A stretch of DNA of 64,000 nt from Nereocystis luetkeana. Lineage: Eukaryota; Sar; Phaeophyceae; Laminariales; Laminariaceae. The notes beneath the pieces were generated by a model. The model did not search any database. It had not been told where the DNA came from and was given only the letters and a program-made list of their open reading frames with translations. Where the stretch lies: NCBI GenBank assembly GCA_031213475.1, contig JARUPZ010000021.1, positions 3,431,545-3,495,544 of the forward strand, written 5' to 3'. Below, piece by piece: positions 7,986-63,000 of the stretch (position 1 is the stretch's first letter; each line of letters begins with the position of its first letter). Both the position numbers and the translations under genes were made by a program.

Positions 7986-8552
7986 TCGAAGGCAATGGTT
8001 TGTCTTCCAGCGTGGTCACTTCCGGAGACAGAAAATGATACATACTACACAACAGAACGGTCGGAAGTCATTTACAGGAATATCGTACGTAATCATATGA
8101 CAAACCAGGTATGCCAGGGCACGCCATCATACACCAGGTATGCCATCATGCATAATGCCTGCCAGCAACTCCGGGTTAGACCTCCGTACAGCGGCCGAAG
8201 CTTCACCGAGATATTTCTAAATAGAAAAAACAGAAAAAAAGGTACGAGCATATCGTCTGCTAAAAATAAGAAGTACAAGCTAATTTGGTTGTTCACATTT
8301 CAAAACATAACCCTACTTTGCCACTTGTTCGAGAAAATGGTCGACGCACGCCGTCTACACACGACACTGTACCTGGTATATGATCGCGTAGTTTCTAAGT
8401 TAAAGGAACCCCGCGAATAAAACAAATAACCATACAGTAGACTCTTTCAAGTATATTGTTATTAGGATTCATGAGCTGAATGCTTGAGGCTTCTTACTCT
8501 TGGGGGGGGCACGGGCAGGCTCATCGCCCGGCCAATCCGACCTAATCAGGGC

Positions 8553-8819
8553 TCAGGACTTTATCGTTGTTGCTGCCGCATTGCTGACCAGTCCGTCTAA
8601 AATACGGGCGTCCTCGTCGTTGAGCTGCCAGTCGGGCCCGTTTGTCGCCGCGGGCTGCAACCCCGTCGCCGCAAGGTGAGCCCTATACGCGGCACAAATT
8701 AGGTAAACGTCTAGCTGGGACCGACGTCGGTCGTGCATGAGCTCCTTCGCTCCCCTCTCTCCGAGAGCTATATGCTCTTCCGTGAGCTCTTCCTCGGCGT
8801 TCCTCATCGCGGGGATTTC
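8553..8819 (-). CDS. Terminal exon of MORN-motif gene
   Basis: Last of three consecutive phase-0 exons. The acceptor is CCTCATAG just above 8819, and the frame runs 88 codons to TGA at 8553-8555. The product is acidic and helical, beginning EIPAMRNAEEELTEEHIALG, with alternating charges that suggest a coiled or helical C-terminus. I do not recognise a domain in it. Codon use and the matching phase with the exon at 9236 support coding. The stop context and the absence of further in-phase exons below make this the 3' end of the coding region. Confidence 0.6.
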   Translation of the reverse strand, partial: EIPAMRNAEEELTEEHIALGERGAKELMHDRRRSQLDVYLICAAYRAHLAATGLQPAATNGPDWQLNDEDARILDGLVSNAAATTIKS

Positions 8820-12437: not shown

Positions 12438-12460
12438 CTGCGGTTTGTACGGAGGTCACA

Positions 12461-18890: not shown

Positions 18891-18893
18891 TAC

Positions 18894-19009
18894 TACTACG
18901 GGGAGCCATAGTTAACAGGACCAAATATTGGTAGTAAAAAAGGTTAAACATATACCTGGTAGGTTTTTATGTATACCATAGGTCCTGTTAACTATGGTCC
19001 CCCGTAATA
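18894..19009. mobile_element. MITE-A copy 3
   Basis: Tips TACTACGGGGAGCCATAG and CTATGGTCCCCCGTAATA. Its interior carries TACCTGGTA at 18953-18961. Relative to the copy at 40359 this is an exact CCTGGTA insertion after a TA. Confidence 0.85.
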
Positions 19010-19683
19010 GGTGGTACGTGGTGATGCTTTTCTAACTGCACGTCGGGCACGTTTTCCGTTGCTACTCTAGCAAGAAAGGCGAGGCATCCGTCGCGAGTCG
19101 GAGACGCTTCAGGGTCCTCGAACTAGTCTGAGTCGCCGAAGATTGGCTTTACAGTGTTGTATTAAGTATCAAGTCTATATACCAGGTAAACATCTGGATC
19201 GGGTGCAACAGAAGAAAGTGGTCACAACTCTGTCGGCCCATGTTTGATAAGCTGGTGTACATCCATCTCTCACCAAGAAGCGAAGTCTACCCATTGTACT
19301 ACAGCACCACAACAGAGATACATGTATAGAGTCGTTCTCGCTGTCTCGCCGCCGCCCCATGCCGGGGTTGACGGTGTGTGGCAGTTAACAGGTAAAATCT
19401 CGAGGACTTGCTCTTCGGAAGCACGACAACAATATCATTATTTCGAGGTTATTATTCAAGCAAACACACATACGCCCGATGCCGAAATTCCAGGTTGTTC
19501 CTGGATCGTGCGTACCACCTGTTATCCACCTCGGGCGGATTATCGCTTCCCCCTTGATGATTTGGATTTTTTCGGGAAGATAGATTCCTGGCCTGCAGGC
19601 TGTAGCTCTTGTTGCCGGGTGGAAGCCGTGTAACCCGTATGATCTAGGACAGGATTCCTGGTTTGGATCTGTACGGTATAGAA

Positions 19684-22880: not shown

Positions 22881-22927
22881 CGCGCAGCCTGGCGACGGCG
22901 GCATCAGCACGAGATGTGGTTCGGCCG

Positions 22928-22929
<2 letters not shown>

Positions 22930-23839: not shown

Positions 23840-25735
23840 CAGAAACCTAGGACCATCTGAGTACTACAAACCCAAGGATCGTTTTGGGTGACAACACGAA
23901 CGCGCAAACGGCCCTTCCATTCATGGGAAAAAGTCTTGCAAGGTACCAGGTGCATGATACCAGGTACTGGTATGTTTTATTCCAAGTCGACTCGGACTTG
24001 GAGCCGTAGCTCTAAACAATAAACGGTTGCGAGGGTACCGCAAGCAGTACAAACGTAAAAGCGGGCACACACGGAGATCTCGCGTTCAGAAGGCGCACAG
24101 CAAGCAGTGGCTCTGTCGTCTCTACTCAGTCCGACAGAAAATATTCGCGCCGCTTGGAATATACAGGATCTTCTGCAGCAACGACGTCGCGCCAATCTCA
24201 TCTGTCTGCTCGGTACGCACGAAGGGTTTTTTTTCCGGGGGGGGGAATAACCAGTTCGATACCTCAATGGGAGCAAAGCCACGGGGGCCTAACGTCGATT
24301 GCAGCATCGGCTACACGAACCAGCCCTCGGCTGCTGGGTTTCTCCGAGCGTAGCAACCACAATGCAAGGAGTTTCGGTCCAGACACGCGCGCAGCAAAGC
24401 AACGAATACTACCCGGGCTGCTGCGCACTCTCATTATTGTAGTATATATGACATACCAGGTATTCCATAAAGCTATCCATCGCAATGTGAGGACCGTTGT
24501 CGTACAAGCAAAAAGACCAGTCGGTCTATACATTTCCGTCCGTAGTGGCACTTGGCCGAAAAGACCGCCGAAAAGACCGCTATACGTACCTGCCTCCTAC
24601 GTACGAATAGAATGCGCAGTAATTGCAAGGTTTAGCATGGAAATCGGGGGACGCAGCGTGGCTGGCCCCCACGTGGTCCCGGTTCAAAGAAGCTTTATTT
24701 TCCTATCTGCATGAAACGCTACCCTAACCCCCACCCCCCCCCCGCCCAAACCCTACCCTACTACCCATAAAAAGTACCTGGTAGGAAATATGTCCGGAAA
24801 AAAAGGCTAAAACCCATGCTAAAGTATTATTGCTGGAAAGAATGGGGACAATTTTAAAACGAAAAAGACGAATACGCCCCGACTGCTATTAATAGAATAC
24901 TTTCCTCTCAGATCTTGGTAAAATGGTGTAGAGAAGGCTACATAGTGGTGGTGGTGGTGGTGGTGGTGGCCGTTTACATTTGGTTAATGTAACACCCGTC
25001 AAAGACAGTCTCTGACCTTGCCGAACACCGCCTTCATCGGGCCGTCGCAGTTGATCAGGCTCTTCTTTTCCGGCTGCTGTAGATTCTTCTCCTTGATGTA
25101 CACCCATCTGGACGAGCAACACAGCAGTACGCCGAGAGGGGTATAATACGCCGCTTGAGTTACATATTCCCGGGGAGTTCTTCCACTCCAGAGTTATTGT
25201 TCGAGCCTGTACTTTGACCACTGACGAGATAATGACAACGAGTTAACCCTGTTAGTACTGCTGTAAGTGTACAGAAACGTGTATTCACTCTGTCCCTACA
25301 TATAAGGAACGTTAGTATACTACAGTAGCATTCAATACAAACGGTCGTTATATTAGGGACTTAGTGGTTTTTCCACTCTTAATTCAAGTAATTTGTCCCC
25401 GAAATGGGAGTGCAGTCCCAAAGGGGGCTAGTGTGATATGAACAAGAACAGCAGCAGCGGCAGCAACAATAACTGCAACAGCAACAGGACACAGTCGAGG
25501 CAGGGGTAACGAAACAGTATCATGAGGGTCCGCGAGCAAGAAATAGCCCCGTAAAAAAAACGAGGCTCGCATTTTTCGAGACGGTGAGAAAAGGTTGGAT
25601 TAAGAAATCCTGCTCGGCGGCGGAAGCTACATTAAACCCTACCACTCTACGTAAGTCATATAAGGCACATCTTGACCTTCAGTGGCTATCTAATGTCCCA
25701 GATATTTACGATCAGACTGTCAAGTAGTAGCCCAC
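23840..25735. other. No recognised gene
   Basis: No exon that I can support. A (GGT)n stretch lies at 24949-24970 and a degenerate TTAA-hairpin arm at about 25381-25425. Confidence 0.35.
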
Positions 25736-25810: not shown

Positions 25811-26650
25811 AAGGAGGCGTTTCCTGGTGGCGGGCCCATACTGCTGTGCCTCCTTTGGGACTTGAGGAAGGGGCGAACTCGTTTGTTGCTTGCCTTAGTA
25901 ATTTGGCCGTTGACCACGCATCCCTTTCGAGACGGAGCACCGTTCCTACTCCTACTAGAGACTCCTTCTACAGCGCTCGGACGCGCATTGCGTTGTTTCC
26001 ATATATCAGGTACAACATACCAGGTAGAAACTTTTTGCCATCCCCTTCCTGATTCGCTCCCTGTGACCATCATCTATCTCCTAGAATAGCGATCGTTTTC
26101 TCGCTGCTATCTAGTGTACCAAACTCCTCCGTGTCACGTTCGCCTATTTCCCTCATTTCTTCTAACACATCCCGTTCCTCCTTGTACATTTCACATCCTC
26201 CTACTACTGTACGCGAGTTCTACTTTGTATTGCTTTGCCACACGGGAGCATCTCTGCATCTACGTCCTCCTCCTCCCGGCTACTGGTATATCTCTTTCCT
26301 CTTCCTGGCAGGTCCAGGTCCCCTACACGAAATCGCATTTCCAGCGTTTTCGCGAAGTCCAGTGGGTCGTGCGAATACGTTTTCATTTATATCCCTTCGC
26401 TTAACCCCCCGTATATCTCTACGCGTTTCTCCGATTTCACTCTGTTTCTTAGCGCCATCATACGTACCCGTTCCCTTATTTCTGTACTTTCTTCTACTGT
26501 ACTTATTTCTGTCTTGTACCCCCCAAACTTCGCTGCGGGCATCATCTCTTCTTGGTTCCCTCCTATACCCTCCCAAACTTTCTCAGCTACGCTATCCCAC
26601 CCTATCCTAGATGGTTCTAAATGTGACAATTTTTTCGGGGAATAAGCTGC
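25800..26650 (-). pseudogene. LINE-3 reverse transcriptase 3' part, decayed
   Basis: Minus-strand frames in succession read EKVWEGIGGNQ, ERVRMMALRNRVKSEKRVEI, PLDFAKTLEMRFRVGDLDLP, GKRYTSSREEEDVDAEMLPC, DSSEKTIAILGDR-like and SRNGAPSRKGCVVNGQ. The order and the Cys-containing block fit the region after the polymerase of a non-LTR element. Stops and frame changes show decay. Pieces of the same element recur at 11962, 45600, 53215 and 58268. Confidence 0.65.
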
Positions 26651-26654: not shown

Positions 26655-28369
26655 GCTGTTGCTGCTGTTGCTTTGATGCCTAAATTTGTACCAGGTATTC
26701 GATAGGGCTCGAGGTGGCCGTGTGGTCGAAGACGGAAAGTGAATAATTAAAACTCTATTTTCAGTACGAACTAGTTAAATTGAAATTCAGCTCCATTTTA
26801 TTCTTTTGAAATCACGTATCGGCATCCCCGATACTAAATTATCTTGCCTATGTTAGACCTATGCCAACGGAAACGCAAAGTCCTAAGGTTTTCTTTCAAA
26901 TATATTACTTTCAAAGAACAGCCTAAAAATCCCTCGTATCGCCGCTGTGGGAGAAAAGAGAAAAAATGTTTGTTTTTTTTTGTTTTTTGTTCCAACGGCT
27001 GCAGGCGGCGCAATTTTTTTTTCTGGTTGCAAATTGTCAACACGCTGATATAAACCAGCTCGTGCGACGATTGACGCTCGATCTCGACATATAGACTCAG
27101 CCCAGGGCCAACCCGCTCGGTGTCCGGCAAGGCCAACGACATAACAGATGACGGCCTCGAAAATATCAGGTGGATCCATGGTCTAGGGGGCGAGAGCTTG
27201 CCGGCGACGTCCTACGGTATATCCTCCCAAACCTCAAAAAAGGCCTACCAGGTATTTTTAGCCATTCGAGACGGATGGAGAAGTTTTGTCTTCTGTTTTG
27301 TGCACACCAGCGGCCAATTGTTTTTTCATCATACGCCTGGTCAGCTCCCGCCACATGACCCCGGCCATGGTGTGAAGACGGTGATCCTAGGGTGGGTCGG
27401 AGCCCCTAACGAGTGCGCTCTGTTCAGAATTCATGACGCAGTCGTTGGTTTTGTCGATCGATGTATGTCAAGGACTCGGAACCTCGTCGCTTCGAAACAA
27501 AGATCGGTCTGAGTTTTTCTCAAGCCGATGTTGGCCCAACATCGGCCTACTTTTTTCGGGCCTTTCCAAAAGTTTGGACCCTTTTTTTTCTAATACACGT
27601 GCCCATAGGAACCGTGTTCTGGAACAAAGTTGGAGGGTATACATATCTTTGAAATTCAAACTTTTTATTGATTCGTACTTCGCTTTCTTTCCCATTGGCA
27701 TAGGTCGTATTTCGCTTTCTTTCCCATTGGCATAGGTCTTTAAAATGTCAAGTTTTCTAAAAGTCACAAAGTTTTTGAAAATTCAAGTTTAGGTATGGTT
27801 GAAATGCGAAGGAGGAACTTAACTTCGTGCTCGCTCTTTTCTGATTGCTCAGATTTTGTACTCGCAACGCCAGCCGCTTGCTGTTCTGTCACGCTTCCAG
27901 TGTAACGGCGATTGTTTGTCGCCCCCTGCTTATGGAGCGCCGCAGCTATGACACTCGCACGTATCTGGTGGCCCCCATATCGTATCAACCGGGAACATGC
28001 AACCTTCCAAACCTCGACAGATCATGATCTATCTATCTGTGTGTCTACTGCTGTAGATCATCCGTCAATGGTTAGTTTCTCACACCTATCTGCCGTCGTG
28101 AAAGGTTGGTTGTGTGCAGGAGCTGCACAGTACAGATCCAACCCACAGAGAAGCATACGCAGTTACTGCTGTAGTGCAAGTCAGTAGGTCATGTGTCATG
28201 CAGCTCTGTTACGGCCCTATATACGAGTATACACGATCGACTTTTTGCACTCACACTTCTTTCATGACCAAGGGCCTTGTGGTCTTTGCCGTGCGGGTCA
28301 AAACCTGAAGGGCGGGAGAGAGCGCGACGAGACTCTTGCCTGCTGACATGTTCTCTCGGAGGAGAGCTG

Positions 28370-28415: not shown

Positions 28416-29745
28416 TGCTGCCGCTGCTGTGTTAGTTGTTGAAGGTTGTTGCGTGTCGTGTGGTACTACAGTCTGTAGTGTACGTGGTGTATGTTGTGTT
28501 TGTTGTGTTTGTTGTGTTCCGTGTTCTGTGTTCTGTGTTCGTTCTGAGAATGGGTTTCAGTACAAATGGAAGGTACTTTTTTCAAGGGGCATGGGGATCG
28601 CTTATTATTACGAAACGGCTGAAAAGAAAAGAAAAAAAAAACTGCTCGCTTGCTCGAACGCAAAGAAAGATGTCAGGATTTTAGGAGAAAGTATTTTTTT
28701 TATCCCCTTGACAACTTCTACTGTCAGTGATTATAACTTTGCCTTGGCATGCGTTGTGATTGACACGAATATACTATTAATACCAGGTATGTGGGGAAGA
28801 CCCCCAGGTTCGACTCGACGTCTATGGCACTTCCCTTTCTGAAGAGTAGGGTAGCGTGTAGGACACGCCAGGTAGGTTTTGGTATAGGATCGGTACGGAC
28901 GATCCCACGAAAAATCCATCAACGATGATGGAGCAGAAGAGTGTGTGTGCAAGGCACGGGCCTTGCATTCCAATCTGCAGTGACTACTTGTCACACGGGA
29001 CAATGTCACTGCTGACGACATCTATCTCTGCTGACAACAACAAATAGTCCAGGAATGAATATGGGTGACCACAGCAGTCGTACAACAAGATACGGATATC
29101 CACGACCTCGGCGAATGGTGGGACCTCCGCGGGACAATACCCATGCGACGGTCTGGTCGAGAACCTGGAACCCACATCGCCCCCCAATGTGTGAACGCGT
29201 AGTGCTGGAAAACCCAGTACCGCCTTTGAACATTTAAGAAGAATGGCCTGATCGAGAACCTGGAAACCACAGGTAGGTACAACAGTATATAGTATTACAT
29301 ACTGTAGTATATAGGTTTTAGTGTAAAACAATGGGCCGCTGACACCCTTGACCACACGTCGTTTGGTGGTTTCTTGCTTTGCATCATCACAGAATCATCT
29401 CTTGACACAACAACAAGATTAGTAATTATTGATGATGAATAAATCGTGTTTCTCAACCTTCTCTCTGTTTTAGATAGATGGAACACAGAGAAAAGATCAA
29501 TCAAGTCGAACTCCAAAAAATAACGTCGACAAAACGCTGTAATATAACGTTGTTGCCAAATTTGTGGAGGCAAAAGAGTTCCCAACAGTAGTAGTAGTTA
29601 GTAGTGGTTATTAATTGGTTGCAAAAGAAAACTGGTCGTTCCTCTCCCCTTTTGAATGCGCTGGGCACACACCCTGGACAATTCCTATTTCAATATAGTC
29701 TAGTCTATTTAAAATATTATGTCTACAATTGTTTCAGGAGGCTGT
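26655..29745. other. No recognised gene
   Basis: Contains a 31 bp tandem duplication at 27679-27740 and a (CTG)n at 28373-28430. A plus-strand frame of 130 codons at 27120-27512 has no motif I recognise. The minus strand there has coding-like fragments but no intact frame. Confidence 0.35.
28373..28430. repeat. (CTG)n microsatellite
   Basis: About 19 CTG units with a few substitutions. Confidence 0.95.
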
Positions 29746-38979: not shown

Positions 38980-41900
38980 GCGTGAGGGGAGAGAGGGCAT
39001 TATCGGAGGCGTTCCTCTTCAGGGTGCGACAGCCGAGCGCAATGCCCCCCTTATCGCGTTCGGGCCCCGCCATTATATGGTTTGTAATATAGCACTACCT
39101 CGCGCTGTGGGACATGTCCGATTTTCGGAAAATCCTCTGGTAAGACCGGTAAAAAATAACCTAAAAAATGCTTTACCCTCGGTTCGGGTGGGAGGGGGGG
39201 GTACATATTGTCATGCATGGCCGTAGTCGTATGATCATAGACCCTCGCATCCCACAATGCCGGGACGGAGCGCGTCTGGTGTTCACTGACCAGGCAGGCA
39301 TTGCTTGCACCAAGGGGAAAGTATACTTACTGCAGAATTATACCTATTACGGGGGACCATAGTGCCGGTCGCCCCGGTGGTTCAAGTGGTTAACCTCGAA
39401 TTCTCCTTGAGTTTGAGTCCTGGGTTCGAGCCCCAGGTGGGTCGGGCATTTGACTTTATTTGCAAAAATAAAAATAAAAAGGATTCAATTATTGAGAGCG
39501 CCTTGCAGCGTGGGTAGGCACAATACGATGCGAGTCGACGAGGGAAGAAAAGGCTGAAATCTTCTCGCGATAAAAATGAAGGCACGTACCGTAGCGGGAA
39601 GGGGGGAGAAGAGCCTACTATGTGACTCCGGATCTGAGTTACGATGTTGGAAGGAGAGAGAGAGAAGATGTGCGAAGATAATGAATGGGTATGAGCAAAA
39701 AAGAAAAAGAAGAAGTAAACAAGACCTACGGTACACACAAACACCGGTACATTTCCGTATATTCATCAACAATATTTGGTCCTATTTACTATGGTCCCCC
39801 GTAATAGTACAGGGATATAATATTAATAGTTATCATAGCCGAAAATGGCGGGGAAAATGTAGGGGGAAACACGTTTCTTGTTTTTCGGTCCCATCGTGGG
39901 TTCTAATGACTTTTTTTTCATTTATTTTTGTAATCATCACTTTCACTCTCCAGCTTCACTCGTAGGAGGTTTTACCCTCAGCGGTATTCTTCTGGACAAG
40001 CCGTGGTCACAGGTGTGTCGTCCCTTCTCCCCCCTCGGGCACGTGCCTTCATTTTTTGTCGCGCCTACGGTTCAGCAGCCCCGCTGCTATTACGGGGGGG
40101 GGCATAGTTAATAGGACCTATGTTATACATAAAACCTATACCTGGTACAAGTATGTATAACCATTTTTATTGACAAAATTGGTGCTATTAACTATGGTCC
40201 CCCGTCATAGTCAATTTTCATCGAATGTAGCCAACTCACGCTCTCGCACTTACCGCCACGAGTCAATTCCATGCAACAAAAAGTCCTCACAAGTACGTGT
40301 GCACTCGGTGAGGCTTGAACCGAAAAAAATGATCTTAGTAGGCACGCGGACCACCTACTATTACGGTGAACCATAGTAAATAGGACCACATACTGTGGGT
40401 AAAAATAGGTAAATATATAGCTTTTTATGTGTACCATAGGCCCTACTTACTATGGTCTCCCGTGATAAGTCACCGGGGGACTATGCCCCTCCCAATAATC
40501 AGACCTAAATATGGCGTGTGAACATGAGGGGAAAACGTGTTTTTTGGGTCCGACGCGGGTTCTGGTCATTACGGCGCCCCCACGTGGCGAAGAGTTTGGA
40601 GGCGTACTACTACAGGGGTACGTAGAGACCTTACTTTATGAGCCTCTATACTTGAGGAGCTCCCACGCTCTTTTGAATGAGCAGAGTCACCCAACAACCG
40701 AAGCCGAAAAAAATAAACAGCACGTACGGTGGGCTCTATCAACACCCATTGCCAGAACAATCCCGCGGCCTCTTGTACGTAGATATTATAGGTGCACGCA
40801 AACAATGGTGCGCACGGCAAGAAGGCATGCCTTGTGAGGCGTAGTTCTTTAGTGGAGGGAGCTCCGGTCCGTCCCAGCGACCAACATTTCGGCCAAACCA
40901 GCGCTCTACACTAAAGAAAACAACCAAAAAGAGATCATATCAGGACGATCGACGACACGTGGTTTTTTTTGGGTGTTGCACCAGGTACCCCCCCACTACT
41001 ATACCTCCATATATCGTCGGCAGAGTCGTATCGGAAAGCGGATCATACCGGGACGAATCATCACCCCGTTCAACCCTTTGAGGACCGCGGGTCCCGTTTG
41101 GGGGACAAAACTACTCGGAATTTCAGTGGTTTGACCCAAAAACGGGAGCAGTCCCAAAGGGCAAAAAGATAGCTCCGGTGTTGGCGGACCGTCTACGACC
41201 AGCGTCGTGAGCGCCCAGAAGCAACGGGTAGGGAGGGGACCACGCCGCGCCCGGGCCGAACACACGGTTCCTTCGCAGTGTAGCTCGCACACCAACGAGC
41301 ATAAAATAAGTATATACTGGTATACAATATACCGGTAAATATATGTATCACCCCGCCCAATCACATACAGTAGTTGCCGTTGCTGAGATAGTCACGTTCT
41401 ACCCTTCATCTTTTTCCCCTTCCCCTCTCCCTCAAGGCCCCCAAGAGGGTTTCGAACTCCCCAGGCGTTTCGTTCCCACAGCGGGGGAGTGCTGCTCTGA
41501 ACGGGGCAATACTTCCGTTGCGGCGTCTCCCACTAACCTGCCGGCGGGGTTGTAGGTGTTGCAGTTGCTCTCCAAGAGCCGGAGGTCTGCGAAAAGGCCC
41601 TCTGGTCGTCGATAGAACCTACGCCGTAAACGCTCCTGGATCATCGTCAGGTGCATCGGCAAGGCTATCTCCTGGAAGGTCGGGGGCAGGCAAAAGGAGG
41701 CCAGGGCCGGGGACGGGGGACGAGATATAGCGGGCTTGTCATGAAAGTTGCTACAGTAGGAGGCCCAAAAAAATTGATCGATTGAACGACCTCCCCCTAC
41801 TTTTTCATCTTTTTTGTTATCGTTACTCTTACTTTCCAGCTCAAGTTTAAGGGGGTTTTACCCTCAGCAATCTTCTGAACAAGTCGAGGTCATAGATGTC

Positions 41901-44900
41901 GTTCCTTCCCCCGATACGTGCTTCGTCCTTACGTTTTTATCGCTTTTAGGGTTCAGCATTCCCACTTCTCGTCGATTTTCATCGAATATTGCTAACTCAT
42001 ACTCTCGGGCTTTCCGCCGATCAATTTTTTATGCAAAAAAAAAAAACTCCTTACGAGCATGCACTCGGTGGGACTCAAACCTCGTATAGAAAGGCCAAAA
42101 CAGGCCGTCGGCGCGCAACGAGCAACGAGAGACCAGTCTCCCATATAGCGACCATATAACACGCAACGCAAAACACCCGCAACAAAGATAGGTAATAAGG
42201 GGGGGGGGGGGGGGGGGGGGGGAAAAAATTGGGCGATAATACAACACTACCTTATCACACGGGTGATAATGTAACACTACCGCATCACACGGGTGATAGT
42301 TATAACACTATCGTATCACACGGGTGATAAGATAACACTACCGTATCACACGGGTGATAAGATAACACTACCGTGGCACACGGGTGATACTATAACACTG
42401 ACGCATTACACGGGTGATAACATAACACTGCCTTATCATACGGGTGATAGGATAACACCATCGTACCACACGGGTGATAACATCACACATCGTATCGCAC
42501 GGGTGATAATATAACCCTACCGTATAACAAGTGTGATCGTGTGAAAAGGTAACCCTACCGTAAAACACGGGTGATAAGATGACCCTACCGTAACACACGG
42601 GTGATAATATGACACTACCGCATCACACGGGTAGTGGGATAATCTTACCGTAAGAACACGGGTGATAACATAACCCTACGGTGAAACACGGGAAATAAAC
42701 AACCCTACCCTATCACACGGGTGATGAGGTAACCCTGCCGTACAACACGAGTGATAATATAACCCAACCGTATCACACGGGTGATGAGATAATATTACCG
42801 TAAAACACGGGTGACAACCTAATCCTACGGTGAAACACGGGTGATAAACAACCCTACCATATCACACGGGTGATGAGGTAACCCTACCATAAAACACGCA
42901 ACACTACCGTAAAACACGGGTGATAATATGACACTACAGTATCACACGGACAATAAGATGGCACACATCCCCGGGCGAATTTCCCAGCCGAATTTCTTCA
43001 AACCCGGGGGAGAGGGAAGGAGGGAGGGGGGGGGGGCAACAACGAAAGTGGCTTTGGAAAGATCTCGAGGGTCCCTTCGCTGGGCGTTTGCATCTTTCTG
43101 CCCATGGTCGATGAAAACCAGCTTCCAAAATTCGCCTTACCGGGGGGGGGGGGGGGGTGTCATTCTATCACCCGTGTGATGGGGTATTGTGCTTGTCATC
43201 CTATCACCCGTGTGATACGGTATTAACAGACAAATCGGAAAAATGGGAACGAAGCCTAAAATGAGAACCAAGCCGTATCTCCAGAACCATGTGGTGTATC
43301 AGAGAACCAAAATGATCCTGCGAAACCCCTTGACCAGCCCTGTGAGAGGAGCTCGTCAGAACGGTCATGCTCCATCTCGTGCCTTCGGGTGGGCGCAAAA
43401 AGCGATATACGCTGGCTCTATTGTGATTTCTCTAGATGCTGGCTACCGCGGCGATGCCGAGGACTTCCAGCCTGAGCGACAGCTCATTCGAAGGCTGCTG
43501 TACAGCCCCACAGGACTGTCAACTTTTTTTCTTGGAGTTGTACACAATTGGTTTGCTTTCTAAAAAAAAACGTCCGTTCCCATTTTTTGTTTCGTTCCCA
43601 TTTTTCCGTTTTGTCTATTTATTGTGCCTGTCATCCTATTACCCGTCTGGCAAGGTGTTACCTACTGATCTACCGCGGGTAACACATCGACCGATTCCCA
43701 AGCTATGGGGGGGGGGGCTTAAAACAAAATTGCAAACCTTAACCAGATCATGATCCATCCATCCATCTATCTATCTATCTACCTGTCTATCTGTAGATCA
43801 TCTAGTTGCTGACCCGCCGTCGTGAGAGGTTGTGCAGGATCTGTACCGTACAGATCCAACCCAGGAAACACTTGTCACAGTCCAGTAGATCATGCAGACT
43901 ACAATACACGGCTCACACCCGGCAACATGAGCTATTACGGGGGACCATAGTTAATAGGACCTGTGGTATACATAAAAACCTATATATTTGGCCATTTTTA
44001 GTAACAATTTTGGTCCTATTAACTATGGTCCCCCGTAATATTAATAGATCATACAGATCATACAGACCAGGAATATATCTATCTACCATGAGATATCTAA
44101 ATCATCCCGTGGGACTCGATGATCTGTCTGAGCTCGATGTGTCTGAGCCGTGCAACCCCCCCCCCCCGGCGAGGTCTTTTGGGACCTGCTGCATTCTCAG
44201 AGAACTCCGCGATCGAGCATCAGGCCGCACACGAGACTCACGGAGCGCGCCCCCCCCCACCTTCCCTCGCCCGCGCTCCTCTCCAAAAGGATGCGTAATC
44301 CAGCAGTCAACTTACCCCAGTAGTAATAACGCAAGCAACCAAAAAGAGTATACCTGCCCCACCTCCTCCCCTCCCTCTCTGCCCTCCGCCCAACCCCCTG
44401 CACCCCCTCACCTCGCTGTAGTTGGGCGCAATGGCGTCGGTGACGGGGTCAATGAAGAACTCGAATACGCCCGGCTGTTGCTTCACCACCCGCTCCAAAG
44501 AGGAAAGCGCGGCCGCGCTCTGCAGTTTTCAACATGGACAAAGCGCGGAAGAGAAGCGGGGGAGGGGGGGGGGGGGGGGGGGGTACTCGATACCTGGTAT
44601 CATGCATGGCCGTGGTCGTGTGACCACAGAGGGGAAGTTGGCTGGTTAAACGCGAAAACACACAATGGATTGGGGGTGGGGTGGGGTGGGATAGGGCCCG
44701 TTTTTTTTACACCAGATCGAATCGAAGCCATTTCGATTCATGAAAAGTGGATCGCTTCGATTAAAAAAAGTGTCCTTCGTTAAAACGGGCCTGTCGCAAA
44801 ACTACAAGATGATACGGATTAAATCAGGAATAACGTTCTGGAAAAAAAAAGCATCCTTGAACAAACAGTATTGGAAAAACGTGACAGGTACACATGAACT

Positions 44901-47900
44901 GGCGAACAACTTTTTTTGGAAAAACACGCTGAAAAAACATATTGGAACAAATGAGAACGGACAACTGGAAATAAAAATGTGGCGGAAAACGTCAGTAACT
45001 CCACCAATTACCGAGATCCAACTAAATGCCGATTGATGTCACTCTCTCTCGAAGAGTAACGCCCGCTTGGGCAAAAAATGGAAACCCCCTACCAGCCCCA
45101 ACGTCCTTACAATTCCGTATATATAGTGCTACAACACCGCTCTACAATATATAAACACGGGCGATGTATCTCTTTAGCTCGCACGGTTGAGCATCAAAAA
45201 CCACTCAGTCGGTCAAAATCACAGCTGACGCAATTGCAACAATTCAAAAACAAACCGTGCACCTGGTACAAGAGATTTTTTTTAAAAACAAATACAAGAA
45301 AAAAAAATCACCTGCTCCGAAGAGAGGAGCCCTCGCTCCGCGCCGGCCTGTCTCGCCCACGCCGCCGCGGGGTCCTCGTGCAAACCCGCGTCCAGCCGGC
45401 GCTTTTTCACCATCGGAAGAACGCGCTTGGGCCACACCAACTCCCACACATTCACCACATCCTGGAGTGGGGGGGGGGCAGCAAGGCAAAGCAAAGCCAG
45501 GTAAGGCAGGCAAGGCAAGGCAAGGCAAGGCAAGGCAAGGCAAGGCAAGGCAAGGCAAGGCAAGGTGAAGACGGCGGGTGGAACGTAGGGGGTTACTCAT
45601 TTCTTGCTTGCCTTAAGAGATTTGAGCGCTCGCCCAACGCGTCCCTTTCGGAGACCCGAGGATGATTCCTAACGCCGAACAGAGGCAACTCCAACTTTGG
45701 ACCGCTCTTAATTTCCATGTACATATGATATTACATTTGGGAAAAATAAATAAATATACATACCTATGTATCGATATATAATACTTCGTATATACATGCA
45801 TCGTATCTCCTTCCGGTTTCCCCGCCTGTGGCCACCGTCTACTGTATCTCCTAGCATAGCGATCGTTTTCTCGCTACTATCTACGAAGGGTACCGAACTT
45901 CTCCGAGTCACATTTGTCTGTTTTCCTCCTACCCTCCTCTCGACACATCCCATCCCTCCCTGCACACCTCACGTTCTCCAACCCTGTTAGCTCTTACCAG
46001 GTATCAACTATTGCTTTGCCACAAAGGCGCATACATCTGTGCGTCTGCTCTCTCCTCCCCCCGACTAGTGGTATACCTCTTTCTTCTTCCTGGCACGTCC
46101 AGGTCCGCTACACGAAATCGAGGTTTGAACGTTTTCGCGTAGTCCATTGCGCCGAAATCGAAAACGAGGTGTGTGTGTGCGTGTGGGCGGGGGGGCGGGG
46201 CGAGGTACTCGATAGGGGATATGTACTCGACCTCATGCATGGCCGTGGTCGTATGGCCGTAGACCCTAGCATCCCTACAATGTCGGGACGAAGCGCCGTG
46301 AGGTGTCTGGCGAGTCGCATGACGGGTGAACTGCATCCTACTAAGAACCGTTTTTGAGGCGGACTTGCATACGGATGACAGCTTCAATCAATGACTCGAT
46401 TTCATTTCCGGCGCGGGAGGGGGGGGGGGGGGGGGGGGGTGTACTCGATAGGAGAGATGTACTCGATCTCATGCATGGCCGAAGTCGTATGACCATAGGC
46501 GGGGGGGGGGGGGGGTTAGGTGAGAGTGCGGTGCGCTCGGTGGCAACTATGGCAGCGTCTTATTCTGGGCGCTATCATTGCCCCCCTCCCCTCCTCTCGA
46601 GGTCTCAACAGTGCGCCTGGCTGCTCCACTCACCGACCCTCCCGAATCCCAGCGCACCGTTACCCCCTTCCAGAACGGCCGTGGGCGAGAACCCTTCCCT
46701 CCCACCCCTCCGTCTCCTCCTCCTCCTCCCGCCGCGGCGGCGCCGACATGTTTGCTCGCGCTGCCGGAACCATCGTCGACGGCCAAAATTTTCCCTTCGT
46801 ATGCCTCCCCGCCCGCGGGGCGCATGCTAACGGTGTCTCCAGGCCGGAATCCTTCACTTAGAGACTACGAATCGGCCAGAGTGGGAAGGCGGTAGAGGGG
46901 GGGGGGGGGGGGGGGGGGGGGGGGAAGCAATAAAGCGAAAAAACAAGAAACGTATAAATCAAAGTTAGGGCTAATTTTTCCGAGGCTCCACCTCAGTTCT
47001 ATTACTTCACCCCAAAAGTTGTCATGCTTTACGTGTGCTGCTAGTATAGAGGTAAGCAGCACACCTATTTTTGTTTAGTCTCGGAGGGACATAATTTGAG
47101 GAACCCTGAATATCTCCCACAAGAATGATCTTGAAGGGAAGAAAAAAAAAAGGACGCCTAAGCGTCTCGCGGCCTATGATATCGTAGGTGTTATTCGAAA
47201 AATATTGCCACCAAAAAAATGATATTCCCAGTGACACAGTGACATTGGGTATTGTCCCTCAATTGAGGAAATCCTTCCTCGTTTGAGGAAATCCCTTCTT
47301 ATCTGAGGAAACCCTTCCTCCTTCGAGAAACCCCGTCGATCAGACACGTACAAATTTTGGCCCCCAAAATGCTACGTACCAATCTCATGGCGCGCGGCTT
47401 TTCGAGAAAATATTGAAAGTACCCCGACAAATCCGACCGCCTGCGTACGAGTAGGTCGCACGCTGACCCCGAGATACAGCGGATCGTTTGGATTGAGCAT
47501 GACAGTAGTACATACACAACTTATCCCTACATCTTGGGTCAAGAGTGCCCCGCCTACACGAAACAGCTATTTTAATAACACGGGGGGCCACAATAAATAG
47601 GACCTACGGTAAACACAAACACCTACATATTTCGCTATTTTTACAGACAACACTTGGTCCTATTTACTACGGTCCCTCGTAACACGCAATCTGAGCCAAA
47701 AGCCTTCAAACCTTTAGAGTGGCACCCTCTTTGAACAACCTCGAGAATAGGCCAGTATATAGAATGTAGTGTATAGCGCTCGCCCCTTAGTGAGTGAGCA
47801 CGATTTCCTCAAGAAGATTTTCTCAAAAAGCGTTCCCCCCCAAACACCGAGCCTTCATGTTCTTATCTTTATATTGGTCGGTTCTTGTACGTGGGCCTAC

Positions 47901-50900
47901 ACCGTAGTCATAATGTAAACGCAATTACCGCGGTCCTCCTTTTTCTACCTCCTCCTCCTCCTCTCATCTCGAACACACAACGCCAAAAAAATCCACGATG
48001 TTTTACCTGCATGACCTTCCGCCGAGGGACGAGGAAGTCGGCACAGTCGCTCGGTCTTAGCGACATCTCGTGCTCGCCGCCGCCTCCACCTCCAACCCCA
48101 CCACCCCCGGCGGACGCGAGAAGAGAGACTACCGCGCCCGCCAGGGGAGGGTCGAAGTTGTCCCCCCTCGCCGGCAGCTCATAGTCGACCCTCCCCACTC
48201 TGCAAGCCACGCCTCCGCGGTCCACCTGTCAACATGGGAGGGCAATATTCACGGGGTAATGGGGGTATCCGATTACAAGAGATCCGTCAGAACACGGCGG
48301 TATCCACCGTGCACCGTACCCGCATGCAGTGTCCCACACCCCCTCCACACGAATTTCAACAGGCTGGGTTTCTCGACAGCCAGGAGGGCGTACTGAATAC
48401 GAGGAGCGGCGATGATGCGTCTATCGCAAACCTTCTCGACAAAATATTTCCAAAAAGCCAACATTTTTTTTCGGTGTGTGCCCCCCCCCCCCCCCCTTGC
48501 CATGTTTTGGAGAAAACCGTGTCTGAAATTCGTCCCGGGGGGTGTTTAATCTTACCACCCAGCGTGATAGGGGGTGCGTTATCTTATCAGCCAGTGTGAC
48601 AGTGATATAAGGTGTACCGCTCTTCTCTCCGACCAGTTCGTGTGCCCATTCAACCCCTTCGCGACTGCGACCATTCGAATGCCCAAGCAGCTTGTCCCCC
48701 AAGACAGAACTTGCAGCTCTAAAAAAAGGTGCTGAGAGTTATATCTGATGCTAAAGCCCGCATCCATCGATCCTTTTTACCGTATACCAGGCACAAAGGC
48801 ATACCTGGAACCAGGCGCGTGCAACAGCCAGTAGTGTGGAAACCGATTAGAATCGGCAAGGTCGGAACCTTCCAGGAAAACGACAATTAGTTCGACTGCC
48901 AACTACTGGAGCTGCTAACAAAGCCCCTTAAGGGCTGCACTTCCGTTGTGGAATAGATGTAAACTTCAGGCTCAGTGCAGTGCAGTACAAAAAGGCGCTG
49001 ACTCGAAACTCCAATATGTATATATACTGGTATATTCTATATATATATATATATATTCGTTGTTCGTAGCTATTTCATGTTACCGCTGAATCAGGTACAT
49101 ATTAGTATCTGTGACCAGGAAAAAAAGAAAATTCACCTATTACGGGGGACCATAGTTAACAGGACCTATGGTACACATAAAAACCTATCTGTTTATCCAT
49201 TTTTACTAACAATATTTGGTCCTGTTAACTATGGCCCCCCGTAATACTAATAGAACCTATTTTTGGTACTAATCCAACAAAAAAACGGCATCGAGGACCA
49301 CCGTGTAAAATCGTCGGCACCCGCCGAACCAAAAAAAAGCCACCCGAGCACTCAAAACCCTCGGGAGGCCTGCCCACCTTGCGGAAGGCCGGAGAGACCT
49401 TCCGGAGGTGCATCCTGGGGTCAGGGTGTTGCTTCAAGAAGGCGGTGTGTCCGGCAGGGAAGAAGAACACCTCATCCCCCTTTTGCCAAAAGCACGACAC
49501 AAACACACAGAAAGATAAATACCAGGGGCGGAAAAAGCAAGCAGAGACAAAACAGACGAGAGCGGAAAAAGACGGGAGAAAAAACAACAAAAACAACGCG
49601 GAGGGCGAAGAAAAGAAAAGAGCGGAACAAAAAGAAACAACAGGGAGAGCAGTCGGCAGTCAGCACGAGTCGGGAAAAGGGGGGGGGAAAGAGGAGGGAG
49701 GGGGGGGGGATGGTGTACCCATGCCGTGCACGGCCGTAGCCGTTTAACCAAAACAGAATTCACTTCCAGGAATATTCAGGACTATCCTCTCGTCTTTGAG
49801 GAAAACCCAGCGTTTGAGATTATTCGGTTACCTCTCTCCTTTCATGTGCTTACTTGGACCTCGATCCATTGTTTTCCGGCGTTCATTATTCGCCACCATT
49901 AGGCCGTTGCAGCCATGTACCAGTACCCCCCCCCCCCCCCCCCCCCCCGCCCCCTCCCCCACAAAACTCTCAGGCGTCCCGACCCTTTCCGCACAAACCC
50001 GCCTAAACGGACGCAACCAACCTCTCTTACCTCGGCCTCCGCATCCTCCCGTTTTCGTCTCGCTCTGTCTTTCTCCTCTACGTGTATCCCACACCTGTCT
50101 CTCGTTCCTGTCTCTCGGTCTGTCTCCTACTCCTCTCTTTGCCCCATCTATTTTTCTGGCTCTGGCCGTCTTTTTCCACTGCCTACCCCATCCTGCCCTG
50201 CCCTGGCTCTGTCTCCCCGCCTCACGTGCCCGCTCTGCCTTCCCCACCTCTCGGTGATTACCTCTTGCCTCCATATCGCCCACTCTAAAGCGAAAAAAAA
50301 AAAAAAACGTTTTTGCCACTTTTCGTAGTTTGCCAGCCATCTTCAGTGCCGCCGATGATACCAGGTCTTATCATTTATTTATTTCTGAAAGAAGAAGAAA
50401 AAAAAACACCCATCGTCCCCTACAAATCACCATTTTTTTTCCGACCTCCTTACGTACACGGATGTATCAACCTCCACGGGAACATAGGGTCCGTTTCCCT
50501 TCCATGTTAACGCCCGAGCGGACCTTTACCATTTCGTCCCTGCCAAGCCTGACAAGGCAAAGCATGCGCCTTTGACTTGGAAGAGGACGGGGTATAACCA
50601 AGTATATACATCTCTTCTCTACTATATTCTCCGTCTCAGTTCAGTTTTTTTTTTGGTCGCTAGAAGCCGCACTGCCGCTATCGCTTAGGGTGTGTCTTAC
50701 CCCCCCCCCAGAGAGCATTGGAACGAACCGAATGGAATATTACTTGCCGCATGAATTGGTGTTGATTGGTTGTGGGAAACGAATAGATTCAGTGCAGCCC
50801 GAGAACAACAGTATATCTAGAAAGAGGAAGAAGTGGTGCACCCCATTTTCTTGTTAGGGAGGACCGAACGGCCCGACCGAACGGGAACAAACAGCAGATT

Positions 50901-51560
50901 ATTTGATGTAGACGGACACCACCGAAGATGGATGTGGACACAAATTTGCTTTGGCACGTGCAAAAGATACCGTTCGTGACGATTCGGCTAGCGAGGCCAG
51001 GATTCTGCATGGACCCAAAACACGTTTTTTCTTTAGGTGGGGACGAAACGAACCACCACGAACAGCCTCGTTCCGTTCCGCTCGTTCCCATGCTCTTTGG
51101 TGGGAGTTAACCCCTTTAGAACCGATGTCCCGTTTTGGGGACAGACTACTTGAAATTTGAGTTGTTTGTCCCCAAAACGGACTGCGGTTCTAAAAGGGTT
51201 AAGACACACCCTTATCCCTCTCTCTCTCCCTCTCTCCTCCCCCCCCCCCCCTCCCCCCCACTGCTCACCTCCTGGGGGACGTATTTGGCCAAGTTCGGGG
51301 CGATCCCCTGGAGCCAGGTTCGCTTCGTCCTCAGCAAAACACGTTTGTCTACCGCGGGAGCGAAAGTCGAGCGACACACGAAAAAAGCCAGAACAAAAAA
51401 AAAGGCATTTATATTATCATATACGAAGTATCATACCACACGTACCACGTAAGACAGAACAAAAAAAATAACACTACTCGTAATACCTGGTATAAAACCA
51501 GGTATGATAGGAACATACGTACGCAGAGTCTAGAAAGACAAATGAAAAGCTAAAGACAAA

Positions 51561-51591: not shown

Positions 51592-54192
51592 AATGAGACT
51601 ATCAGAAACAAAAAAACGGTTTTCAATCGAGCGGAGGGAGGCACGTGCACCTTACGTGGGCCCACAAAGGCAATCACTCAGTAACCAAAAGCCGCAGCTA
51701 CTCGAAGCTCCCGTGAAAAAAAAACATAACACCAGTTTCAGCGAAAAGACAGAAATTCGACGGAACCCTTGATCTCTCTGCCGAGGCGTGTTGATTTTTG
51801 CTTTTATGGTAAATAACACATCGGCATCTTCAGATATACCGAATATGTCGGGGAGTTCATTTAGGTCTTCGGGGCGCCAAAAAAAAGGGGGGGAGGGGGG
51901 GGGGGGGAAGGGAGAGGGACGGGGTGGCAGATTTCCAGCTGGACCATCCCGCCTGCCTGCATAATATCCTTCTATGGTACATGCGTGGCGATGATTCTGT
52001 ACGTGTTACCAGGTACACCTCTCCAAAATAACAGTCCTTCACAAAACACCTGGTACGCATAAATAATTCCAACCATGGGCGCTACCTCGCCCATAGAACT
52101 ATCCAACCCTCAGCCCCCCACCCCCCCCCCCCGTCTCACCTGCCAAGGGCACGGGAACGATGGGACGACCCACCATCCCCCCGATCCCCGTCCCCGCACC
52201 GCCACCGCCGCCTCCTCCAACACCCCCCTTGGCCTTCGCGGACCCAGGCAAAATACCCGACCTCTTCAATCCCATAGCGTTAGCAGCCTCGAGATTGTTC
52301 GGAACGCTCCCCCCACCTCCATCGCTTCACCACCACCACTGCCGCCGCCGGCACCCAGCCCTCCAGCCTTCCCCTTGAGCTTCGACTTCGGCTTGCCCTT
52401 TGCGGAACCGAGGGTGTCGCCAGTAGCCGCCGCTGCTGCTGCTGCGGCCGCCGCTGCGGTCGCTGCGGCTACTGCCGCCATTGCCGCAGCGGCAGCGGCG
52501 GGAGCTGACGCCATGTTCGGGCTGGCGTTAGCGGCGGCGACGGCGGCGGCGGCGGCGGCAGCAGCGGCTGGGCTCGGCGCGGGCGACGCCTTGGGGTTGG
52601 CCGGCGACTTTTTCTTCTTGTTGAGGGTGGATTTTTTGCCCTTTTTGGCGCAGCGAGGACAGGCGTACTTGGAGAACCGGTTGCAGTCGAGCTCTGTCAG
52701 GCCCACGCAGCGCACCTGGAGAGGTACCACGCGTTGTATTGGGTGGGGGAGGGGACGGAGGGGTGGGGGAGGGAAGACGTTACGTGGGGAGTAACGAGGA
52801 GGACGGGTGGCAGGGGACAGGGACAGGTGTACACAGGCAGGCAGGCCATGCACGGGGATATGCGGGGACACAAGGACAGACACAGACACACAGACAGTCC
52901 CGGGGATTACCATCTGCAGCCGAAAGCACACACAGAAAGAAAAAGCAAACACAAAAACGTATACCTGGTATACAATATCCAAACAAAACCCCCCAACGAA
53001 ACACACACCTAGCACACACATAAAGACACACACCAGACACACAAACAATACAAAACACAAACCTGTGACACAAAATGAAACCCTAACCCCTTGACGGCAA
53101 CCACTGTGCGGAGACCCTCCTGCGGCTAAAAAAACAATGGCCACCCCCGCTACCTGCCCATGTAATATACGGTAACAACGTAATGAGCGCCCAGCTGTTG
53201 GGGGTGTATATATTAGGAGTAGGAACGGTGCTCCGTCTCGAAAGGGATGCGTGGTCAATGATCAGAAACAAAGGCAAGCAACAAATGAGGATCCCCGCCC
53301 GCCCCCCCGCCCGCCCGTCTTACTCCTGGTGTCATCCATTTCTTCGCGATGCAGTACACAAGGCCCACAACCCCCGCCCCCCTCCCTCAAAAGTATGAAA
53401 ACCCTCACGTGGAACCAGTCTTCGCAGAAATCACACTCCAGCATGGTCCCCGAACCATCAGCCGTGCGACATATGCAGTACACCACACCCTCCCCCCTTC
53501 CGCCGCCCCGCCCGACCCGGCCCCCATCCCCTCCCCCTCCTCCATCGCCTCCTCCCCTCCGACCCCCGCCTCCATCTCCATCTCCATCCCGCCCTCAAAC
53601 GGCTCCCTCTGCCCTCCCGCACCACCTCCTCCTCCTCCGCCGCCGCCGCCGCCGCCATCACTGACGGTAGCGCGCTGAGTCTGAGCCTGGGAAGCAGCAG
53701 CCTGCTGGATTAATTCCGGCGGAAACCGCGGACCGGCGTCGGCATCCGCGGTCTTCGGTGGTTAGTAGATAGAATTGATGGGGATAAAAGCAAAAAAAAA
53801 AAGCGTGAACGAGAAGAGGGCATGTTCTTAGAGGGGGGAGAGAATGATCGGGGGGGGGGGGGGGTTGATTGTTTGTTTGTTGGTTTGATGCAGCAAAGAA
53901 GGCGACGGAGCACCCACCTCCGTTCGAACTAACCTGAGACACGCAGGCTGTGCTCGAGCCTTTCTTTCCAGATGGATGACGTTGTAGTGTTCAAGTGGGG
54001 AGCAGTGGCTGTAATAGGCAAGCTATTCAGGTACATACACCCTTTGCCTTCTTCGCCACTTCAAGCCTCCAAGTTCCTGTACAGCATCTCATCGTGGTCT
54101 TTTGGCGGTAAACAACTACAGGTACAGCCAATTATTGCTATTATTCGTGAACCTGGCGCGATTGCGGTCCATATCTTCGTGAGCTACGACTG

Positions 54193-57018: not shown

Positions 57019-57051
<33 letters not shown>

Positions 57052-60000: not shown

Positions 60001-63000
60001 GCAGAAACATTAACGTGTTCCATAGTTGGGAAAAAAAACGATCTTTGGGAAAAATCGAAAGCGCGGGCGCAGCCGCGTTTCTGGCCCGTTTTTTGGGGTC
60101 CCCGGGCTGGGGCCGGGGCCAGGTTTATGGGGTCTAATATCGCTACTGTAAGTAGATCCTAACCTGCGCTATATGTGAGATGCTGCGCAGGGTCTGTGTA
60201 CAGTACCACCAGATCCCAACGCAGAAAAGCACGTGCCTAGAAAAATGCACATCAGTATACGGCTCTCTCTCTCCCTCTCTCTCCTTCCACCCAGGCAAAA
60301 AAAACAATGAGCTACTGTATGTACTATTACGGGGGGACCATAGTTAATAGGACCTATGGTATACATAAAAAACCTACCAGGTATATATTTAACAATTTTT
60401 ACTAACAATATCTGGTCCTATTAACTATGGTCCCCCATAATATTAGTACCAAATATAGATAATCATACAGCATCAGGAGAAACACCCTCCCTCAAAGATA
60501 AAGACAATGGAGGAGTGGAAATCGATGATCAGTCCGAGGTGTGGAACGTTTTCAGGGTCTGTTCACGGGTCACGGCCCGAACCGTGCGGGTCGGGTCAGG
60601 AGGTACTCAGCATTTCACGGACCCGGTCGGCCCGGACCGGACCGGACCGGACCGGACCGGGTCGCGTCAGGAGGTCTTCAAAATCTCGCGCGTCGGGTTG
60701 GGGCCGGCTGGTGGGCGACCCGACCCGATCCGACACAGATGCGACACGACCCGACTCGACCCGACCCGACCCGACCCGACCCCGACTTGACATGACCCGA
60801 CCCGACCCGACCCGACCCGACCCGCGAGGTTTGACGCGACCCGTGTGAACAGCCCTATATGATACCAGGTATTCAAAGTAAATATGTCAAATATGTTCAT
60901 AAAACGTAACGAACGAACTGCGGACCACGGGTCCGAAATGCGGATCGCGCTCTCTACCCAACAAGCTCTGGCCAAAAGATCCATTTGGGCTCTGATATGA
61001 ATGTCAAACGGGATCTTACGTTCTCGGTCAGTGCAATTACCGCTGTGGTGCGAATTATGAAAAACAAAAAACGCTTCAAGCGTCGGACAAGACCACCGAT
61101 TCCCACTACATTATCTACGAAATAGTTACCGGTATTATCCCCTGTAGGACCGCAGTCCCGTGTTGGGGACAAACTACTTAAAATTGAATGGTTTGTCCCC
61201 CAAAACGGGACTGCGGTTCTAAAAGGGCTAATTGTATTGATAGCGATCGTTCAAGGCAGCTACGTACCGCTGTTTATAATAGATTCATTCCCGAACTTGA
61301 TACAGTTCGTACCATGCTGTCGGGTGGGGGACCCGTTGAAATCCTGAGTTTTTTTTTTTCTACCCTTTTCGTGCCGCAGTCTCGTTCTGGGGACAAACCC
61401 CAAACTCATAAGTAGTTTGCTCCAAAAACGGGACTGCAGTTCGTTTCGTAACACATGATTCCTGGGTTGGATCTGAATTATGAGATCCCGCACGACCTCT
61501 CACAACGGCAGTTGAGAGGAACGAGATGATATATCTATCTGTACACAGATAGATCATGATATATCTGCAGATATATCCATGATATATTAGTCCGAGGCGT
61601 GAAAAACTTCCGAGATTCATCGGGCACTGTCCACAGATGCAAAAAACAAGACTGCACACTTTCCATTTACGGCACCGTGAAAGCTGAAATTACTAACCCG
61701 CACACACGTCCTTGCCTGCCTCACGCTAACAAAAAAAACGCCGCAGCTTACCCGTACATACAACAAAACACGCACTTAGTACCCAACCCTTGGAGAAAAA
61801 AAATCCTCAAGCTGACTTTCTCGACGATAAGCAGAGCGGGAACACCGAGCGACGCGCCCGTTAAAAATATTGCCATGAACACTTTTCAAGCCCACCGCTT
61901 TCTTCGTGTGTCGTGTTCCCTGTGCTTGCTTTGGAGAAAAATCGAATCGGAAAAAATCACGCCAGGGGTTGTGTGCCATGTACAGCACCTTGCGGGTGAC
62001 CGGCTATGAACTGTGAACGGGTGGGTTCTGATGAGGCTCATGGGTGCCTAGAAAGAGGCGTATAATACGCGACCTGGTTTCATCTCTGGCCACCCCCATG
62101 CGCAGAACATTTTGCCAACAGCACTCCTGTTCCGACCTATAACATCATACCTCCTATCGTGTTGCTCGAAAAAGTACGAGTATGTATATTGCGAAATGTC
62201 AACCGCGTTGGTTGTACTACTGTATACGTGCTTCAACCATGGGTCACACGGCGGGACCGCAAAGATTTATCCTGGATTTTTTTTTGCGGTGCTGAACAGC
62301 CCGACCCCCCCAAAATGTTGTTGCAAAACCATACGCGTATTTCACATTGTGCACTCTTAAAAGACTAGCGTATACTATACCTGTACGCACGACGACGACT
62401 TGGCCAGTTCAACAATATGGTTGACAGTCAGAACTCAAACCCATTTACACACCGCAAAATAATTTTCCTAGAAATTTCCCGGGACGTTGGGGTCAGGATG
62501 AGGGTAGCTTTGTAGGGTAGGTTTTAGAATCAGACATGAGGGATATACCGGTACAATACGTGCTTGTGTTTTGAAAAGTCGAAGCTACGCCACATCGGTG
62601 CCGTGAGCACAAAAAAAAAAAGATTTCCAAGTGTTTTCCTATTTGCTATACACTATCGCGGGGTGTGCGAGATATGACGAAAATAAAAAAATTCGTGGGG
62701 GTGGGGGATACTCTGCTCGCACCGTCAACACGACGAAAAAACAACAAACAAAGCTCGAGCTCGAATTCGTACTAGTAATCAGGTGGGTTTGAAACGGGGA
62801 GCGCGTAAAGAACACGGAAAAATAACTCCCTCCCGCCCCCCCCCCATACGACTAAGGTCATCCATGACATGGAGTACATCTCTCCTAACGAGTACACCCC
62901 CCCCCCCCCTGCCCTCCTGCCTCGTACACACGATCGTAGTAAAAGGGGCTTACCTTGGTGAGCTTCACTTTACGCAGGGTGGCTTGCATCTTCTCGCGAT

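Follow-up and report, generated by a model that had tools for sequence, protein, structure and literature searches.

A 9-bp motif repeated throughout the genome of the brown alga Nereocystis luetkeana, probably as excision footprints of a TA-targeting transposon

What has placed the same nine bases at so many points of a brown algal genome? The question is raised by a stretch of 64,000 nucleotides of Nereocystis luetkeana (GenBank assembly GCA_031213475.1, contig JARUPZ010000021.1, positions 3,431,545 to 3,495,544), hereafter the window, in which the 9-mer TACC(A/T)GGTA (TACCWGGTA, W being A or T) is repeated. An earlier note, made from the letters of this stretch, had located 21 exact copies against about 0.5 expected, and had taken them for footprints left by a transposon upon excision. 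All 21 copies are present, and 100 dinucleotide shuffles of the window held a mean of 0.48 copies (maximum 3), with none of the 100 reaching 21. The results described below indicate that the excess extends to the whole genome, and that the 9-mers are probably the excision scars of an element of the Tc1/mariner type.

The motif in the window and in the genome

All 21 window copies have A or T at the centre of the 9-mer and none has C or G, and the 7-base core ACCWGGT is found 40 times in the window, whereas ACCSGGT (S being C or G) is found 3 times. The insert between the two TAs is 5 bp long (CCWGG) in every one of the 21 copies. The 9-mer is palindromic around its centre, being its own reverse complement except for the middle base, so that the A and T forms differ in strand orientation only; they number 13 and 8 in the window, and 44 and 56 among the 100 genomic sites listed. 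The variable centre had been interpreted as a repaired mismatch, with which it agrees, but as a matter of strand orientation it proves nothing in this respect.

A genome-wide count against expectation had also been proposed in the earlier note. In the assembly, which comprises 465,085,209 bases in 1,987 contigs, TACCWGGTA was found 182,395 times, whereas the same pattern reversed, used as a control, was found 1,744 times, an excess of about 105-fold (the pattern used in the count ended in N, and the matches listed are the 9 bases). This represents approximately one copy per 2.55 kb, and about 1 in 130 TA dinucleotides carries the 9-mer, taking a total of ca. 23.7 million TAs as estimated from the TA density of the window. 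The over-representation of the 9-mer is confirmed, therefore, as real and genome-wide. The density in the window (0.33 per kb) is close to that in the genome (0.39 per kb), so that the window can be considered typical; its GC content ranges from 48 to 58% in 4-kb steps.

Insertion at TA, stacked units and flanking TAs

The joined flanks of each site were used to search for relatives in the window and in six stretches of a contig here called C1. A relative spanning the point was available for 10 sites. In 4 of them (18953, 60375, 44591 and L003:1501) the 9-mer is a clean insertion of 7 bp at a TA, which is duplicated as in a Tc1/mariner footprint; in 2 the case is weaker and in 4 it is unclear. 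At 18953, the 9-mer is a 7-bp insert at a TA in comparison with 49249-49134, which is 93% identical over 116 bases, and 60375 matches an empty relative at 43932 (91%). Both sites are located in copies of MITE-A, a miniature inverted-repeat transposable element (MITE), for which the insertion comparisons of the earlier note were right: 3 of the 12 aligned copies bear the insert, 2 of them at the same TA, and 5 of the 9 copies lacking it read TA there according to our reading of the alignment. The two inserts at the same TA may go back to a single event, multiplied together with the element. For 44591, located in a poly(G)-linked repeat, only one TA stands at the site in the relatives at 9789 and 59792, as had been described for the first of them, but others read TC, TG, CG or CC. 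For L003:1501, one TA is present in the 4 relatives listed, 5 having spanned the site. These last two sites may be parts of a single composite poly(G)-linked repeat, because the window relatives 5250-5335 and 4965-5055 adjoin, and the four clean sites represent two or three repeat families.

The weaker cases are L008:1501, whose two relatives read TA and CA, respectively, and L002:1501, with a poor match on its right side. Those not clean are 30367, where the relatives listed read TT, AT or T-, 40139, where extra length differences lie beside the insert, 45995, and L008:1582. The insertion at TA previously described for 45995, in a copy of the long interspersed nuclear element (LINE) LINE-3, is unsupported, since the sole spanning relative aligns poorly across the site. 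The inverted ends of MITE-A lie around CGGGGGACCATAGTTAA...TTAACTATGGTCCCCCG.

Some copies of the 9-mer are stacked. In a sample from one end of one contig, the first 100 sites listed for C1, 8 of the 99 gaps between neighbours are exactly 7 bp, which corresponds to two units sharing a TA (stacked-unit pattern TACCWGGTACCWGGTA), while 0.8 to 1.5 such gaps would be expected under random choice of TA (p 2e-4 for the larger value). The centres of the stacked pairs have the same orientation in 5 cases and opposite orientations in 3. Tandem slippage as the source of the stacks was ruled out, since it would give identical orientation and 3 of the 8 pairs differ. Spacings of 14 bp, equivalent to two TA-N5-TA steps, were also observed between exact or near copies (23944/23958, 26004/26018 and 14573/14587 in the window, and 20002/20016 in C1).

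The flanks were analyzed in 32 distinct sites, i.e. the 21 of the window and 11 from C1, giving 64 half-sites. Neither the 21 nor the 32 share any sequence beyond the 9-mer, with the exception of a symmetric preference, which is what is expected of a Tc1/mariner target; a longer conserved repeat containing the 9-mer at most sites, which the earlier note had named as an observation that would refute it, is absent. Counting outward, T is found at +1 in 48% (29% expected) and at +6 in 58% (25% expected), the latter because a TA sits exactly 7 bp from the TA of the scar itself (+6/+7). This outward TA is present in 21 of the 64 half-sites compared to 4.7 expected (p 3e-9), in 18 of 61 without three nested units (p 3e-7), and in 14 of 42 for the window only (p 1e-6), these p-values being uncorrected for the 18 offsets examined. 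It is found on both sides at four window sites (24454, 24775, 30367 and 45995). Weaker excesses of outward TA appear at +1/+2 (13 versus 5.3 expected) and at +13/+14 (11 versus 5.1). The TAs of the window in general show no excess of a further TA at 7 bp. The 5 bases between scar and outward TA are, nested units aside, unlike CCWGG, and the TA at 7 bp is therefore read, for this small sample, as a rule of target choice and not as decayed scars. To our knowledge, no such rule is known for the Tc1/mariner family. A TA every 7 bp provides a testable clue to the hold of the enzyme on its target: bending of the target by about 147 degrees is described for Mos1 in a passage of PMC5481204, and the TA steps at 7 bp on each side could, by our own reasoning, be bending hinges of the target.

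Excision footprints and alternative explanations

The genome-wide count, the stacking at shared TAs and the flanking TA at 7 bp are the results on which our case rests, and they make it probable that the 9-mers are scars left by the excision of a cut-and-paste element that resembles Tc1/mariner, targets TA, has the ends CCAGG…CCTGG and is cut out with 5-nt overhangs able to anneal to each other. In the mechanism that we infer, a DNA transposon beginning with CCAGG and ending with CCTGG would insert at TA, duplicating it, and the transposase would later cut the transferred strand at the tip of the element but the second strand 5 nt further in, so that both flanks would end in CCAGG 3' overhangs. 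These overhangs would anneal to each other over 4 of their 5 bases, so that end joining would be accurate and the product uniform; the central A:A mismatch would be resolved to A or T, and the product would be TA-CCWGG-TA, 7 bp longer than the original site. Targets flanked by additional TA steps at a distance of 7 bp would be preferred by the enzyme, and since the scar itself supplies TA-N5-TA, it would draw new rounds, so that stacks with a shared TA would follow from the flank preference. A scar built of element tips would be symmetric around one variable base; symmetry and a W-only centre are observed, the tips being those of a putative element.

In the passages of the published work compared here, both similar and different systems are described. 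The footprint of Sleeping Beauty is given in the earlier note as TAC(A/T)GTA. According to PMC7827188, the cut made by this transposon lies 3 nt inside, and the footprints that result from end joining are identical to the 3' overhangs. The two systems would be alike in the TA target and in a scar derived from the element tip. On the other hand, the inner part has 5 bp here, compared to the 3-nt overhang of Sleeping Beauty, 0-3 bp for ZB and 0-4 bp for Passer (PMC7827188, PMC7913693, PMC9976928). The footprints of Stowaway MITEs and Osmar5 in grasses consist of fragments of the terminal repeats of 1-4 bp per side, which sum to 1-6 bp between the TAs, and for them a new insertion at the TA of a previous footprint has been reported as well (PMC1925063). 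Because Stowaway footprints reach 6 bp, length alone does not exclude the Tc1/mariner family for the 5-bp insert. Stowaway and Osmar5 leave several forms at single loci, whereas one exact form is repeated here in all the copies counted. Ectocarpus contains 17 TcMar (Tc1/mariner) families with almost 12,000 copies, mostly MITEs (PMC12477816), brown algae being hosts to many mariner elements and MITEs; the words 'excision' and 'footprint' are absent from the main text of that paper. Tc1/mariner footprints in such number are unreported in the passages compared, the titles and abstract openings of the literature searched make no mention of scars of this kind in brown algae, and the exact words TACCAGGTA, TACCTGGTA and TACCWGGTA were not found in that literature. 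It is the number of scars, their uniformity and the target rule that are unusual.

Several results weigh against an origin by excision. The earlier note saw no intact donor, and one simple paired-end test of the window, in which ends [CT]ACCWGG…CCWGGT[AG] within 8 kb (45 left and 48 right ends) had to agree in 8 or more of 12 inner bases, yielded no filled element. Of the interpretation put forward in that note, support was obtained for the genome-wide excess, the lack of a longer repeat and the 7-bp insertion at TA. No two exact copies in the window are 7 bp apart, and 4 of the 10 comparable sites are not clean, the dinucleotide varying among relatives. CACCWGGTA and TACCWGGTG, with strands summed, are found 10 times in the window compared to about 1.1 expected, an excess that plain TA duplication does not explain. 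They may result from decay at the outer T, or represent a 7-bp unit ACCWGGT between C and A, and no empty-site relative for a CA form was found among the spanning relatives. The Tc1/mariner scar between TAs is given as 2-4 bp in a passage of PMC7913693, which the 5-bp insert exceeds. In rice, finally, passages of PMC4423477 report that Mariner insertions outnumber excisions by about 2.6-2.8 to 1, and that 86 of 94 excisions, considering all superfamilies, carry deletions or filler, 'perfect' meaning there two bare copies of the target; the scars described here are more uniform than those.

A different origin would be direct micro-insertion, in which a transposase inserts joined tips (CCWGG or ACCWGGT) at TA, no larger element having ever been there. 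The uniform product and the lack of a filled copy in the window by the paired-end test agree with it, and the 10 CACCWGGTA sites could be read as a 7-bp unit, ACCWGGT, inserted between C and A with no duplication of the target. We know of no transposase for which such micro-insertion is the main product. Simple excision yields an identical sequence and has a precedent in the passages of PMC7827188, and micro-insertion appears to us unlikely.

It could also be the case, with a probability that we consider quite low, that TA-bounded elements of the germ line or of another life stage undergo programmed or near-complete removal, so that CCWGG scars would be present in the sequenced cells, in a manner similar to the internal eliminated sequences (IES) of ciliates but scarred. 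The very large number of copies would be consistent with this, as would the uniform product and the negative paired-end test. According to passages of PMC4148214, IES excision in Paramecium is TA-bounded and the broken ends are thought to anneal via short overhangs; it is precise, with 4-base 5' overhangs, whereas a 7-bp scar stays here. The two MITE-A copies scarred at the same TA argue against programmed removal, since they suggest that the repeat took some scars along when it was copied, and that these are inherited, although separate events at a single preferred TA could also account for this pair. We know of no germ-line elimination in brown algae, for which no search was made.

A functional binding motif, for instance of a regulator or an insulator, multiplied by selection or gene conversion would be palindromic and similarly frequent in window and genome, as is the 9-mer, but the comparable repeats present a 7-bp insertion and not base changes, and units stacked at a common TA are oriented both ways, which makes this explanation scarcely credible. 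As for a longer dispersed repeat whose other bases have diverged, to which the three MITE-A copies carrying the 9-mer would point, the flanks of the 21 and of the 32 sites, alike only in their symmetric preference, leave it practically no probability.

If the 9-mers are indeed excision scars, one element family has marked the whole genome with exactly countable scars, and transposon excision, which is often invisible or ragged, would become measurable across strains and species, so that brown algae would gain a set of markers and a clock. The scars would also point to a transposase that cuts with a 5-nt stagger and allows accurate joining, which would be useful as a tool. A broader proposal, which we advance as a rather doubtful possibility, is that of a TA-targeting system, present in a brown alga now or until recently, with 5-nt self-annealing overhangs, near-complete removal leaving a 7-bp scar, and a target TA-N5-TA-N5-TA partly recreated by the scar ("scars breed scars"), which would have produced some 180,000 scars and would perhaps be programmed at a stage of the life cycle.

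Variant forms and other features of the window

The positions of the 9-mers and of the related features are collected in Table 1.

Table 1. Copies of the 9-mer, CA forms and repeats used for comparison, in window coordinates
Feature	Position	Strand	Remarks
9-mer	8370..8378	+	TACCTGGTA
9-mer	18953..18961	+	In MITE-A copy; 7-bp insert vs copies at 49137 (93% identical) and 43926
9-mer	19180..19188	+	TACCAGGTA
9-mer	23958..23966	+	Near-copy TACCAGGTG at 23944, 14 bp upstream
9-mer	24454..24462	+	TA exactly 7 bp outward, both sides
9-mer	24775..24783	+	TA exactly 7 bp outward, both sides
9-mer	26018..26026	+	Near-copy TATCAGGTA at 26004, 14 bp upstream
9-mer	26689..26697	+	TACCAGGTA
9-mer	27246..27254	+	TACCAGGTA
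9-mer	28781..28789	+	TACCAGGTA
9-mer	30367..30375	+	Within degenerate ~42-bp minisatellite; TA 7 bp outward, both sides
9-mer	34390..34398	+	TACCTGGTA
9-mer	34677..34685	+	TACCAGGTA
9-mer	40139..40147	+	In third MITE-A copy, beside insertion point of the other two
9-mer	44591..44599	+	In poly(G)-linked repeat
9-mer	45995..46003	+	In LINE-3 copy; TA 7 bp outward, both sides
9-mer	51484..51492	+	AACCAGGTA 12 bp downstream
9-mer	52007..52015	+	CACCTGGTA 40 bp downstream
9-mer	52962..52970	+	TACCTGGTA
9-mer	60375..60383	+	In MITE-A copy, at the TA used at 18953; copies at 43926 and 49137 have the empty site
9-mer	60863..60871	+	TACCAGGTA
CACCWGGTA / TACCWGGTG	1588, 8132, 14740, 20900, 22823, 23944, 40979, 45260, 52047, 63736		
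Empty relative of L003:1501	4965..5055	-	91% identical
MITE-A copy, empty site	43926..44050	+	CCTATATATTT
MITE-A copy, empty site	49137..49254	+	CCTATCTGTTT
MITE-A, 12 copies	2335-2420, 2445-2547, 18891-19010, 39714-39809, 40086-40215, 40356-40467, 43926-44050, 47580-47682, 49137-49254, 54475-54589, 54867-54981, 60324-60448		

Following the CA forms, the commonest single-base variant in the window is AACCAGGTA (3 versus 0.5 expected). Altered scars were counted there on both strands: TACCAGTA is found 9 times (1.5 expected), TACCGGTA 3 times (0.9 expected) and TACCATGGTA once (0.05 expected), while TACAGGTA, TACCTA, TAAGGTA, TAGGTA and TACCAGGA are near expectation, and TACCAAGGTA and TACCAGGCCTGG are not found. 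The 9 places with TACCAGTA or TACTGGTA are possibly shortened scars. TACWGTA is found 28 times in the window (6.9 expected) and TACSGTA 22 times (7.1 expected); TACNGTA as another W-specific footprint was ruled out, since the S-centred form is also in excess. Its 50 places, 3-4 times those expected, may represent a smaller footprint class or an effect of composition.

Three end pairs of the paired-end test, the best in the window with 8 of 12 inner bases alike, were taken as chance. A Pfam scan of 20 of the 66 listed open reading frames (ORFs) of the window gave no match, an Rfam scan gave nothing at gathering scores, and a protein search with the ORF at 45860-46354 gave nothing at E 0.001. 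The doubled motif matched 9 stretches in viral contigs. Part of a LINE reading frame (21805-23232, minus strand) has 73 relatives, including those of Ectocarpus sp. (49% identical) and Sphacelaria rigidula (56%), which point to a brown algal host; the best one, 81% identical, is found in a bacterial bin, a metagenome-assembled genome of Parasphingorhabdus, and is probably a contamination. With the LINE protein P0001, 39 and 3 stretches matched a pattern in other genome and viral contigs, respectively, but no locus was confirmed. The window also contains a tandem repeat of ~30 bp with the core ACACGGGTGATAA (42200-42980), as well as a predicted tRNA-Arg (CCT) at 39370-39445.

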